A DNA stretch of 64,000 nucleotides from Macrocystis pyrifera (Eukaryota; Sar; Phaeophyceae; Laminariales; Laminariaceae), in assembly GCA_031763025.1 (NCBI GenBank), contig JASSKH010000006.1, forward strand, positions 1,275,048 to 1,339,047, read 5' to 3'. The position numbers and the translations under genes are program-made. Shown piece after piece: positions 10,425 through 62,744 of the stretch. Below the pieces are notes generated by a model. That model ran no database searches and was not told the DNA's origin. It was given only the letters and a program-made list of their open reading frames with translations. Numbering within the stretch: the stretch's first letter is position 1; every line of letters begins with the position of its first letter.

Positions 10425-10880
10425 CTTGATTCGCTCTTGTGTTTTTCGTTTCTGTTTCTCGTGCGCCAATTTGTTCTCCCCTTGTTTCTTTTTTTTTTTT
10501 GTTTTCGTTCTCTTCGGGCGATGAATGCGGGGGGCCATAGTTAATAGGACCAAATATTGTTAGTAAAAATATGTAAATATGAAGGTTTTTACGTATACTA
10601 TAGGTCCTGTTAACTATGGACCCCCGTAAAACCAAATACCAGGTAGCTCTTTCGCTTGGTTTGCTATTTTGTTTTCCGTTTCTGTTTCTCGTGCGCCAAC
10701 TTGTTCTCCCCTTGTTTTCTGTTTTTTTTTTTTTTTTTTTCATGATCTTCCTCCCGGCGATGAGTGAGTGAAGAACTACTAAATAGCTCTTTCGCTTGAT
10801 TTGCTCGTTTGTGTTTCGTTGCTGTTTCTCGTGCTACATTTTTGCTCTCCCCTTGTTTCTTTTTTTTTTTTTGCTATTTT
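10425..10880 (+). repeat. Three imperfect direct repeats interrupted by MITE-A
   Basis: A unit with GCTCTTTCGCTTGATTTGCT, TTTCTGTTTCTCGTGC and CTCCCCTTGTTTCT plus a T run occurs at about 10425-10500, 10645-10740 and 10785-10872. A MITE-A separates units 1 and 2, so it entered after or during the duplication. Confidence 0.7.
10526..10629 (+). mobile_element. MITE-A copy
   Basis: Plus orientation; the left TIR is shortened to GCGGGGGGCC and the right TIR is intact. Confidence 0.85.
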
Positions 10881-10904
10881 TTTTTGTCCGGACGATGACT
10901 GAAG

Positions 10905-11067
10905 AACCCGGACGACCAGGCCCGCTTCAGGGTGGAAGTTTCCTTCAGTCCCGGAGTGGTGAAACACGCCTTGCTCAAGGGGGAACACCTGCATGCGGCG
11001 CCTCTCGTGCCGCTTCATAAGGACCTGTCGTGTGCGCAGGTGGAGGCTGCCCTCGGCGCCGCCATCG
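10905..11067 (+). CDS. VIP1/PPIP5K exon 8 (last exon recognised)
   Basis: Acceptor GACTGAAG before 10905 (AAG type), donor ATCG/GTGAGA after 11067, leaving one base over. Encodes NPDDQARFRVEVSFSPGVVK, equivalent to animal 'ERFHVELHFSPGV', then LSCAQVEAALGAAI. This is close to the end of the conserved phosphatase domain. The remaining C-terminal exon(s) were not securely located; a Gly/Ser-rich candidate lies at 15352-15976. Confidence 0.92.
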
Positions 11068-11079
11068 GTGAGACAAAGA

Positions 11080-11206
11080 GAGGGAGAGAGAGAGAGAGAG
11101 AGAGAGAGAGAGAGAGAGAGAGAGAGAGAGAGAGAGAGAGAGAGAGAGAGAGAGAGAGAGAGAGAGAGAGAGAGAGAGAGAGAGAGAGAGAGAGAGAGAG
11201 AGAGAG
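11080..11206 (+). repeat. (GA)n microsatellite
   Basis: About 60 GA dinucleotides starting 13 nt inside the intron after exon 8. Arg-Glu open frames through it are artefacts. Confidence 0.97.
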
Positions 11207-11725
11207 CCTGTGTGAAACTTTTTTTTTCTTTGTATTTTTTTTCAGGCGTTTTTTTTTCTCGGGGGGTTTTTCCTGTATTTAATTCTATTAGAGTTGTGTC
11301 AGGTATATGCTATACGTCGTATCACACACTCGGTACATATACAGGAGTAGCGCAGCTGTGATGGGGGTATACATAACGTAGCTGTCGCTGGGAACTCACG
11401 GACGAGTTTTTTGTTTTTGTTTTTTTTTGTACCTGCGAAGGTAGAAATTGCACCAAAATTTTGTTTCCTGGGGTTCCTCGCTTGAGAATCTCCACCCTAT
11501 ATTACCAAGTCAAAAAATGCTTTTTTTTTTTTGCTGAAAAAAATAGAGCAAATGTGGCCTACTACTGCAGCTATGGGTGTGCAAATAACAAAAAAAAAAC
11601 CCTGTAATATCGCGCAAAAAAACAAAAAAAACAAACGTTCCGATGATCTTGGGTTAAGGAGTGCCGTCATCCAGAGAATGGTTTTGCCAAAACAGTGCCC
11701 CCGTACTCCTCTCGTACCATGCGTC
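11207..11725. other. No gene recognised
   Basis: T- and A-run-rich sequence without coding signal, presumably the PPIP5K intron or 3' flank. Confidence 0.4.
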
Positions 11726-11729
11726 CCCG

Positions 11730-11782
11730 GTCGGTCGGTCGGTCGGTCGAGCGGTCGAGCGGTCGAGCGGTCGGTCGGTCGC
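11730..11782 (+). repeat. (GGTC)n microsatellite
   Basis: GGTC tetramers interrupted by three GAGC units. Confidence 0.85.
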
Positions 11783-11888
11783 TTCCGCCGTGTCGAAAGG
11801 GGTCCCTGTTTTTTGTTTTTGTTTTTGTTTTGCGCGGTGCACGCCCATTTTTGACACTCGCATTATGTACTTGAACATGTCATACTGC

Positions 11889-12470
11889 GGGGGGGGGGGG
11901 GGGGGGGTGGGGTACTCGATAGGAGAGATGTACTCGATCTCATGCATGGCCGTAGTCGTATGACCATAGACCCTCGCATCCCTACAATGCCGGGACGGAG
12001 CATGTCGGGTTTTCACCGACCACGCAGACATTGTTTGCACCAAGCGCGAAGCACCGTGAGGTGTCCGGCGAGTCGCATGAAGGGTGAGCTGCATCCTACT
12101 AAGAACCGCTTGTGAGGCGGACTTGCATATGGATGACAGCTTCAATGAGTTAGTTTAATTTCCGGTGTGGTCACTTGCAGAGACAGCAATGGGAGTACTA
12201 TGTAACTGCCTCTTGGGTGCCTTACCTTGAACACTACGTGATACGATCAATTCCCTTGTGCAGAGTAAATGTTCTTTACTTCGCACAAATGATCTAACTA
12301 GACGACCAGCTGTGGGCGACCGCCAAAAAAAAAAAAAAAAAAAAAAAAAAAAAAAAACGGTACGGTACCCTGGATGTCTAGCTCACGTAGTGAGCGGCAT
12401 GTTTTACAGTGTCGTTGCCAACCGACGCCAACCCAACCCATATGTAATATATATATATATATATATAAAA
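11889..12470 (-). repeat. Family E repeat, long reverse copy
   Basis: Begins at a G run (11889-11907) and reads as the reverse complement of the copies at 13.1-13.7 and 43.2-43.7 kb: GTACTCGAT end, CATGCATGGCCGTAGTCGTA, CATCCCTACAATGCCGGGAC, the CGCCCAACACCT region, a GAGGCAGTTAC segment and a GTTGGCGTCGGTTGG end. It contains A39 (12325-12357) and an (AT)n run (12445-12466). At 12201-12207 it carries the uninterrupted TGTAACT that is split by an insertion in the 43-kb copy. Confidence 0.8.
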
Positions 12471-12563
12471 TAGGGGGGGGAGGGGAGGGAAGTGTACTAT
12501 TTATCATTTATGGCCGTAGTCGTATGAGCATAGGTCCTCGCATCCCTAGGGAGGGGCATGGTA

Positions 12564-60540: not shown

Positions 60541-60586
60541 CCAGGGGGAACTGTTGATCCAGCTGGAGCCCAAGACGACCACTCGA

Positions 60587-60939
60587 ATGTGGCTAGCCTC
60601 GGCTTTTTTACATCTGACATCCGCAGCTTCAACATCCGCGGCCTCTCCCTCGTCCCTGTCTTTCCTGTCCCATGCTCTGGTGCCAAGGGCACTTCTCGTA
60701 GGAACTTGTCGGAGCAGGAGGCCGCCGAGGTCTCAGCAAAGCACAGCAGCAGCAGCAGCCGCCGTTCTTGCTCGCAGCAGACGCTTCTTAGCTGACGTCG
60801 CTTGCGCGAGCACCTCCCCTGCTGCTGCGGGTGCAGGCGGAGGCGAAGGAGGCAGCATGGTCCCGGAAGATGCAGCGTCCCTGATTCGGGAGGTGTACAG
60901 GGCCAAGCCCACGCCGCAACTTTGCTTGTCAAGCACGGG
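60587..60939 (+). CDS. First exon of a gene, possible CinA-like domain start
   Basis: From ATG 60587 it encodes a hydrophobic, Ser/Ala-rich N-terminus (MWLASAFLHLTSAAST ...), an Ala/Arg-rich stretch, a Gly-rich linker, and then MVPEDAASLIREVYRAKPTP and QLCLSSTG, ending at a consensus donor GG/GTAAGC after 60939 in phase 2. The N-terminus would suit an organelle transit peptide. The 'LIxxVYxxxxPxxLxLxxTGG' end resembles the start of CinA C-terminal-like (nicotinamide-nucleotide amidohydrolase-like) domains of algae and plants. No following exon is evident before 64000, so most of the gene would be beyond the window. Confidence 0.4.
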
Positions 60940-61049
60940 GTAAGCCAAGCGAGGAAAAAGAGCTCGTGTATTGATGATGCTGATGATGACAGCGACAGCA
61001 TTCGTATACATAATGTGGTCGAACCTCGCACGAGTAGCACGTAGCAGCA

Positions 61050-61088
61050 GTACAGCAGCAGCAGCAGCAGCAGCAGCAGCAGCAGCAG
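61050..61088 (+). repeat. (CAG)n microsatellite
   Basis: About 12 CAG units inside the intron after 60939. Confidence 0.95.
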
Positions 61089-61361
61089 AGGCCACATTCG
61101 TGACGCATGTACATACCAGGCTTGAGTATATCATAGGTTGGCCGATCTTGTCCCAAGAGGAAGCGTACATTCACTTCATGCAAGCTGTGTGTGGTACCAG
61201 ATAATGCATGCGGACGTGCGGACGACAGGCACAGACAGCTTTTCCTTCGAGCCATGTTGCAGTTTCGCCCGCGTGCGTACGCGATACGCGGAGGGCCACC
61301 CTGTCCATTCTCGCGAAAGGGCTACCTGCGGAGCGCTTGCTGGCCTCAGCGCGCAGTAGGA

Positions 61362-61394
61362 GTTGTTGTTGTTGTTGTTGTTGTTGTTGTTGTT
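61362..61394 (+). repeat. (GTT)n microsatellite
   Basis: Eleven GTT units. Confidence 0.95.
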
Positions 61395-61714
61395 CCATTG
61401 TCTCATCTTCACGGCAGTTGCAATGCGTTCTGTGGTCGCAGGACAGGCTCCGATAACTCTTGGGGTGGGGAATACCTCGGTACAGCAGCAGTAGAAATGA
61501 AAAAACAAGCAAATAATCAGCGCCTACTGCCGTGTAGCACATCTACACCTCAGACAATAATAAAAAAAGTTAGGTCCGCTCTCGTGCTCGTGCGTTATCA
61601 GGTACACATACACGCGGTACGCTGCTGCTGTACATGTCGCCACAGAAACCGAGGAGACCGCGTACGACTACCCAGGAAAAAATAGACAGGACGAAAAAAA
61701 ACAACTCGACGCCG

Positions 61715-61860
61715 AAAAATCGAAAATCAAAAGGCGAAAAGAGAGAGAGGGAGAAAAAGAGAGAGGGAGAGAAAACGAAAAAAAAAAAAAAACGATTAAG
61801 CAAGAAAAGCAAGAAAAGCAAGAAATCAAGAAAGGAAAACACACAAGAGAATGCGCAGAT
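61715..61860 (+). repeat. A-rich purine stretch
   Basis: GAGAGAGGGAGAAAAAG and AAGCAAGAAAAGCAAGAAA repeats. Confidence 0.8.
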
Positions 61861-62060
61861 TTTCGCAGATTGTGCAGGCTCGGAAGAAACGCGAGGTGGA
61901 ACAGAGATAATAACAGAAAAACAAACATACTTACCCCGCTTTTAAGAACACCAGAGGAGAAAAAAAGAAGCTATTAATAATAGACCAGTAGACAAGTATT
62001 GGCGAACAGCGTACTGGTACAATTCATTCAGCGGTACTGCTTCGTACCAGGTACACTGTA

Positions 62061-62113
62061 GCTGCTGCTGCTGCTGCTGCTGCTGCTGCTGCTGCTGCTG
62101 CTGCTGCTGCTGC
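62061..62113 (+). repeat. (CTG)n microsatellite
   Basis: Seventeen CTG units, eight bases after a TACCAGGTA motif. Confidence 0.97.
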
Positions 62114-62744
62114 TCTTACCGCCGTCGTGTAAGCTGCAGCAGATACAACATTCGCGAAGCGTGTATACATATCGTACGCGCCAGGCTACGCGGGCACAAG
62201 TTGACCCATCGTCGTGTCCCTAGAGCTGTGCGTCGGCAGGATGTCACAAGTACATGGTACCAGGTACTATTTATAACTAAGGTGCCGTCAGCCAACAACT
62301 GGATTTGGTCGGCAAGTTGGCTGGCGAAGCCCGGTGGTGGCCAACCGACCTGCCCTACAGTAGGTCAGGCGCAGTCAAAAGCAGGGCTTGTGTTATTAAT
62401 CAATCTTGGTTATGTCGCGGATTTGAAGCTGTTTAGGTACCTGCTACATAATTTTTGTAGACTACTACAGTAGTACAGTATAGGCCCGCCAATAAGAAAG
62501 TGCCCAATAAGAACAGAATGGTCACTTTTTGGAGAACGCTGAGAAAATTGGGTTAAGACAGACGGCTCAGCGGTGAACTCTACACTAAATCCTCTGTAGA
62601 ATAGCCTCATAGTATGCTCAAGGTTCTTTGAAGATGGCGCCCCCAAAAAATCTCAGACTTGCCCAGATTAAGTGTTGTTGCTTGTTGGCGGGCCCATACT
62701 GTAGGGCATGAAGGAAGCGCTTTCTGAGGGATCGAAGTACGGGC

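Follow-up and report, generated by a model that had tools for sequence, protein, structure and literature searches.

Frequency of the Word TACCWGGTA

The palindromic word TACCWGGTA in Macrocystis pyrifera is probably the excision footprint, or scar, of a cut-and-paste MITE family of about 83 bp that inserts at TA and has the ends CCACTCTG...CAGAGTGG. There are 17 sites of the word in the window, the whole stretch of 64,000 nucleotides that was analysed. A mean of 0.52 was obtained from 100 dinucleotide shuffles (largest 3), which agrees with the expectation of about 0.5 in the initial annotation, and all 17 of the 9-mers that it listed are present as exact matches. The central base is A in 9 sites, TACCAGGTA (10637..10645, 26392..26400, 28270..28278, 36557..36565, 46383..46391, 48809..48817, 50566..50574, 62045..62053, and 62258..62266), and T in 8 sites, TACCTGGTA (19600..19608, 22119..22127, 27764..27772, 30728..30736, 34946..34954, 43412..43420, 58865..58873, and 59078..59086). 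The site at 36557 lies within a tandem-repeat tract. Two pairs of scars in the window have the same spacing of 213 bp. The flanks of the two pairs differ, and the equal spacing is thus taken as a coincidence.

The genome-wide count that had been proposed was carried out on the whole assembly. It gave 121,279 sites, which are not all independent events, as they include scars copied by duplication, compared to 2,421 for the reversed word. This is one site per 4.4 kb, so the window is ordinary for the genome. Neither TACCAGGTA, TACCTGGTA, nor TACCWGGTA as a whole word is mentioned in the literature searched, a set that mostly leaves out subscription journals.

Duplication has copied some scars along with the surrounding DNA. 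Contig C1 contains a five-copy repeat with two scars common to the copies, and a C3 segment was duplicated in the same manner. However, it is scarcely credible that the word is over-represented because it is carried within repeats. The 17 window sites do not resemble one another in their long flanks. In the 250-kb sample, 54 sites were left against 1.98 expected when tandem repeats and a 108-bp MITE were masked, and TACCWGGTA heads the list of 9-mers when diverse flanks are required.

Insertion at TA

It was predicted that plain TA and TACCWGGTA would be found at corresponding loci. This was seen in alignments of repeat copies at three loci (59078, 43412, and L116:301), where the scar stands as a clean insertion of 7 bp against a plain TA. 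For 59078, exactly these 7 bp are missing in 20/20 fetched copies of the surrounding repeat. The copies are 0.95-1.9% diverged, and the scar is therefore recent. One copy with the unscarred TA is found in the window (44605..44905, plus strand). The scar at 43412 is an exact 7-bp insertion relative to 5/7 spanning repeat copies, and an unscarred copy is present at 12054..12333 on the minus strand. Four window sites have a spanning copy, and the other two, 34946 and 48809, are without a clean 7-bp gap. The copy of 34946 (near 38742, 74% identical) reads TACCCGGTA and does not provide a clean insertion test. The sole copy of 48809 (48519, 78% identical) has CCAGG. Three sites in the sample (L010:5198, L021:6970, and L021:6989), compared with copies that are 68-73% identical, also have no clean 7-bp gap.

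A gap scan of the sample repeats found 116 insertion loci, 8 of the TA type and 2 of these CCWGG, which are too few for a spectrum of products. A scan of chained alignments chiefly returned the 108-bp repeat. This repeat, TTACGGGGG...CCCCCGTAA, was considered as the scar source and rejected, as its ends do not give CCWGG.

The initial annotation had read the word as excision scars of an active TA-transposon. The scar part is supported. The term active is based on one scar found only in a repeat copy that is about 1% diverged from the others, and not on an observed jump.

A palindrome that is so extremely frequent and whose flanks are unrelated could also be a protein-binding or methylation-linked motif that is kept or spread by selection, as with HIP1, the highly iterated palindrome of cyanobacteria. 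Scars do survive in duplicated copies, but these copies were picked for perfect scars. A HIP1-like motif would be kept and not inserted, whereas the three loci above have exact 7-bp insertions at TA. In addition, the one-mismatch neighbours of the word are raised (83 versus 43.7), as would be expected from the decay of scars, and the flank preference of the scars is that of a transposable element. A selected motif is thus very improbable.

The Putative Source Family

The MITE family is flanked by TA and nearly palindromic, and its consensus is a near-perfect palindrome. It has the properties of a MITE: it is short and non-coding, and it has inverted repeats, many copies, and a target duplication. 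There are 40 two-ended loci, 22 of which are 83 bp; TA at both ends was the rule for accepting these loci and so is present by construction. The first 25 bases and the reverse complement of the last 25 have a median identity of 0.72 (33 copies). One resident copy of this proposed source family, 85 bp long and TA-flanked, is found in the window at 7760..7844 with the ends CCACTCTG/CAGACTGG. A MITE end, TACCACTCTGTCCC, is present at 47639..47652 on the plus strand, and its far end was not found. At L089, there is a MITE with a second MITE end after it.

The exact 14-base MITE ends number 1,666 in comparison to 15 for the reversed pattern. The claim that scars outnumber visible elements thus holds, as the 121,279 scars amount to 73 per exact MITE end. 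Full CCA...TGG elements had been expected at the scar sites. Elements of this kind with TA flanks do exist (53 unique loci) and have the target preference of the scars, but none were found at the scar sites themselves. MITE and scar alleles at one locus were not found when MITE flanks were compared with the sample (18 spanning alignments, no clean case). An intact scar adjoins 5/93 MITE half-sites, with 1.7 expected after weighting. The viral contigs have 0 exact matches to the MITE end.

Target Preference Common to Scars and MITEs

The sites were also said to lack common flanking sequence. This is correct for long flanks and not for the nearest bases, which have a weak palindromic preference (A at -6, W at -7, R-TA-Y). 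When the scars were removed in silico, 58 reconstructed sites gave WA-N4-R-TA-Y-N4-TW. The TA-X-TA control classes do not have this palindromic preference.

Scar sites and MITE sites have one target preference in common. A matrix built from MITE flanks (87/93 half-sites) was applied to 98 scar half-sites and gave an AUC of 0.728 (p=2.8e-15), and most other TA-X-TA classes were near chance, with the caveats that AT-rich words such as TATA score high too and AA/TT is slightly raised (0.54). The MITE and scar matrices have a correlation of 0.744; the best of 2,000 random TA sets reached 0.64. The minor form CCAG gave an AUC of 0.70 (p=5e-5), and CCATGG and CCAGGG likewise match the MITE matrix. 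TACCATA, the 3-nt Mos1-like form, does not show this target preference (AUC 0.51).

Possible Excision Mechanism

The transposase would nick each end 3 nt inside the element and leave 3' CCA overhangs on both flanks. In end joining, the overhangs could overlap by one base, A:A. The CC and GG would then be filled in, and resolution of the mismatch to A or T would leave TA-CC-(A/T)-GG-TA. A further insertion into the TA of an existing scar may produce the tandem scars TACCWGGTACCWGGTA, and 4 adjacent pairs were found among 53 sites versus 0.09 simulated. With steady hopping and little multiplication, scars would accumulate far above the number of elements. The form that retains both CCA overhangs, TACCATGGTA, is found 2,743 times versus 911. 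If TACCTAGGTA is much rarer than TACCATGGTA, this would favour CCA/TGG ends.

Several points stand against this reading, among them the sites that lack a clean gap and the failure to find a transposase or a locus with both MITE and scar. A CCA overhang pairs poorly, so that a one-base overlap at every site has to be accounted for, and the Mos1-like form TACCATA lacks the target preference. The MITE copies are old, with a median identity to the consensus of 0.795, whereas the dated scar is recent.

The scars could instead come from another TA element, rare or extinct, that ends in CCAGG or CCTGG. The CCACTCTG MITE would then only have the same target preference, which a related transposase, for instance, could account for. 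The CAG overhang of Sleeping Beauty is self-annealing save at the centre. A 5-nt CCWGG overhang would likewise self-anneal except at the centre and would account better for a uniform product, and it suits the near absence of other excision products and the old, diverse MITEs. However, TACCWGG without a following TA occurs 95 times in 250 kb and no continuation recurs more than twice. Inverted-repeat scans from CCWGG found no CCWGG-ended element in these 250 kb, and nothing past scars and chance, from which a rare element could escape. CCAG, CCATGG, and CCAGGG fit the MITE matrix and are simpler to derive from CCA/TGG ends. A second element of this kind is therefore considered unlikely, and the MITE family is preferred as the source.

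Relation to Known Systems

The name Tc1/mariner-type, used in the initial annotation, fits in part. TA is the target and is duplicated (empty scar sites have a plain TA, and the preference is centred on TA), and the MITE family has terminal inverted repeats. The membership is unproven, as no such transposase was found. PF13358 gave 0 matches in the three candidates examined. The 95 sample ORFs gave one DDE_Tnp_4 match and, among the matches listed, one DDE_Tnp_1, and no Tc1/mariner model. An autonomous partner was not found in these searches or at L072 and L073, whose two 5-kb stretches have only about 272 bp in common and were rejected as a longer partner.

Sleeping Beauty and mariner footprints also have terminal element bases left between two TAs, and the Sleeping Beauty footprint has A or T at its central mismatch. 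Mariner-type nicks are described as 3 nt inside the element (PMC7827188), as is proposed for the kelp MITE. Tc1/mariner footprints are given as 2-4 bp (PMC7913693), whereas the main kelp scar has 5 bases between the TAs; the minor form CCAG has 4. The kelp also differs in that one product dominates the whole genome. Among brown algae, Ectocarpus is reported to have almost 12,000 Mariner-Tc1 copies in 17 families, mostly non-autonomous, such as a 217-bp MITE (PMC12477816). The words footprint and excision are absent from the main text of that paper. In rice, genome comparison likewise records excision, but the footprints there are reported to be complex and to vary, and perfect ones may be rare (PMC4423477), in contrast to the uniform kelp product. 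HIP1 of cyanobacteria is also a very frequent short palindrome and is discussed with DNA methyltransferases (PMC4390886), whereas TACCWGGTA arises through insertion at TA.

Implications

The source of the assembly was a haploid gametophyte (PMC10498591). It is conjectured that the uniform scar is perhaps due to the way that repair works in a lineage whose haploid stage is free-living. A tentative picture, somewhat short of an even chance, is that of a steady-state MITE that hops without multiplying, with few old residents and more than 100,000 scars. On average it would stay at a site for much less time than a scar persists, it would be moving in kelp populations now, and the one-base-overlap product, undescribed for such elements, would be its signature.

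The scar reading accounts for the most frequent flank-diverse 9-base word of the sample. The excision half of cut-and-paste transposition is usually near-traceless, and the genome here would be a readable log of past jumps. With a uniform product once per 4.4 kb, how often excision occurs, which targets are chosen, and how the ends are joined may be counted from sequence.

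Scar Abundance and Insertion Sites

The 9-mer TACCWGGTA (W = A or T), here termed a scar and named by its start position, was found in the window exactly as the initial annotation had counted it, with 17 copies, all at the reported positions (nine with centre A and eight with centre T), and its estimate of about 0.5 expected copies agrees with dinucleotide shuffles (0.52). The whole assembly (537,376,219 bp, 223 contigs) contains 121,279 copies against 2,421 of the reversed word, far above this control. The giant kelp reference is described as 537 Mb in 223 contigs from a haploid female gametophyte (PMC10498591). 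The assembly also encodes a GT64 protein with 67% identity to Ectocarpus.

Four window sites have a spanning repeat copy (59078, 43412, 34946, and 48809). It had been proposed that aligned loci would show either TA or TACCWGGTA, and among repeat copies of this assembly this holds at 59078, 43412, and L116:301 but not at 34946 and 48809. In the first 276 kb fetched, 59078 had nine spanning alignments, with an exact 7-base absence in seven (including loci L005 and L007, which are mutual duplicates) and a larger gap in two. Site 43412 had a clean gap in five of seven. The repeat around 59078 has 1,613 candidates genome-wide, of which 40 were scored; 20 were fetched from the remaining 39, and all 20 lack exactly the 7 bp of the scar, with 0.95-1.9% divergence outside it. 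Because only one repeat copy, itself young, carries this scar, the scar is recent. L116:301, compared with L003 (91% identity), is the third clean case. At 34946 the spanning copy has TACCCGGTA in place of the scar, and at 48809 it contains CCAGG and the gap is absent; both count against insertion. At sample sites L010:5198, L021:6970, and L021:6989, whose copies are only 68-73% identical, the gap is also unclear. At the three clean loci, TACCWGGTA is an insertion rather than a substituted motif.

After CCWGG was removed from 58 sites (250 kb), A at -6 was present in 0.53 of scar half-sites versus 0.26 when every TA is considered. The reconstructed sites also favored W at -7 and R-TA-Y, and TTAA, CTAA, TTAG, and CTAG were absent from them. 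This preference was not seen in the TA-X-TA classes CG, CA, AA, CWG, and CCA.

A Resident MITE Family

A scan for TA-flanked inverted repeats identified TA-CCACTCTG...TGG-TA elements (MITEs) of about 83 bp, with a resident copy at 7760-7844. The exact end TACCACTCTGNCCC occurs 1,666 times in the assembly versus 15 for the reversed pattern. Sixty of about 100 listed ends were fetched, with one near a contig end left out, and removal of seven duplicates gave 53 loci; a far end ending in TA was found at 40. The consensus of 33 copies (80-85 bp) is a nearly perfect palindrome whose near-end conservation reflects sample selection, because the search pattern fixed that end. Median identity to it is 0.795 and only 5 of 528 pairs exceed 0.9; the family therefore appears to be old, and this sample shows no sign of a recent burst. 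The CCA...TGG elements suggested for the scar sites do exist, but no locus was seen with the MITE in one copy and a scar in another. Searches with PF13358 (three candidates), among 95 sample ORFs, and in the L072/L073 stretches found neither a Tc1/mariner transposase nor an autonomous partner. On contig C126, L072 and L073 hold a repeat of ~257-272 bp that opens with the MITE end and differs in its interior; the two copies are 83% identical.

The MITE flank profile is the same as that of the scar sites: A at -6 (near end 0.51, far end 0.45), W at -7 (0.74, 0.80), and little T at -1 (0.04, 0.12). A matrix was built from 87 of 93 MITE half-sites, excluding six that end in CCWGG. By this matrix, 98 scar half-sites outscore all TAs (AUC 0.728, p=2.8e-15). 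Control AUCs were 0.46 (CWG), 0.41 (CAGCAG), 0.50 (CG and CA), 0.455 (CC), 0.51 (CCA), 0.54 (AA/TT, p 0.013), and 0.53 for any five bases between TAs, a class containing the scars themselves. The matrix is partly an AT preference, because equally high scores are reached by TATA and other AT-rich words. MITE and scar matrices correlate at 0.744 (maximum 0.64 among 2,000 random TA sets). An intact scar shares its TA with 5 of 93 MITE half-sites (L056, L074, L075, L091, and L098; 1.7 expected after weighting), and at L089 a second MITE end comes next.

Probable Excision Footprints

When 280 TA-X-TA classes (226 kb masked sequence) were scored by the matrix, the best-fitting beyond plain AT words were CCAGG (51 sites, z 8.1), CCAG (16 sites, z 3.8), CCAGGG (three sites, z 3.2), and CCATGG (three sites, z 2.7); given 280 classes, CCAGGG and CCATGG are weak alone. 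TACCATGGTA, with both CCA overhangs retained, occurs 2,743 times versus 911 for its reversed word; its matching word TACCTAGGTA lies outside this count. Mariner and Sleeping Beauty are described as nicking 3 nt inside the element (PMC7827188). Two CCA overhangs could join through a one-base A:A overlap and, after fill-in, would leave TACC(A/T)GGTA. Re-insertion at the TA of an existing scar would give tandem scars; in agreement with this, 53 sites include four pairs of adjacent scars, where simulation gives 0.09. TACCWGGTA is probably the MITE excision footprint, the best explanation even with the unclear repeat-copy sites taken in.

Other Scar-Like Words and Repeats

A second scar-like word, TACAGCAGTA/TACTGCTGTA, occurs 24 times in masked sequence (0.92 expected) and at 26 places in 250 kb, including 7419, 18659, 32086, 36485, 37528, 48265, and L011:8845. 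Its flanks are unrelated, with context C-TA...TA-G. Its fit to the MITE matrix is poor (AUC 0.41), which would place it in a different family. A further word, TACWGTA, is raised too (68 versus 32); its possible source is an element at 62474-62703 that is flanked by TA and has inverted repeats with CAG ends (18 of 20 end bases match). A nearly palindromic repeat of ~108 bp, TTACGGGGG...CCCCCGTAA, is very abundant (12821-12931, 36660-36769, 37141-37252, 39555-39666, and many more). Internal TAGGG-type 5-base arrays lie at 1481-2069 (117 units) and 33512-34010 (98 units). A repeat on contig C1 (L003, L107-L110) has five copies ~12-24 kb apart, each with the same two scars ~405 bp apart. L010 and L011 match a copia-type retroelement (Pol_BBD, rve, RVT_2, gag).

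Proposed Mobility of the Family

One-mismatch neighbors of TACCWGGTA number 83 versus 43.7 expected, an excess that would be expected from decay of older scars; one of six control words was also raised (58 versus 40). Scars were predicted to outnumber visible elements, and they exceed exact MITE ends 73 to 1 across the assembly, a loose ratio because duplication copies scars and degenerate MITE ends escape the count. Supposing that every jump produces a single scar and a single new copy, the high ratio would mean short stays and long-lived scars, and the MITE family may then move without multiplying.
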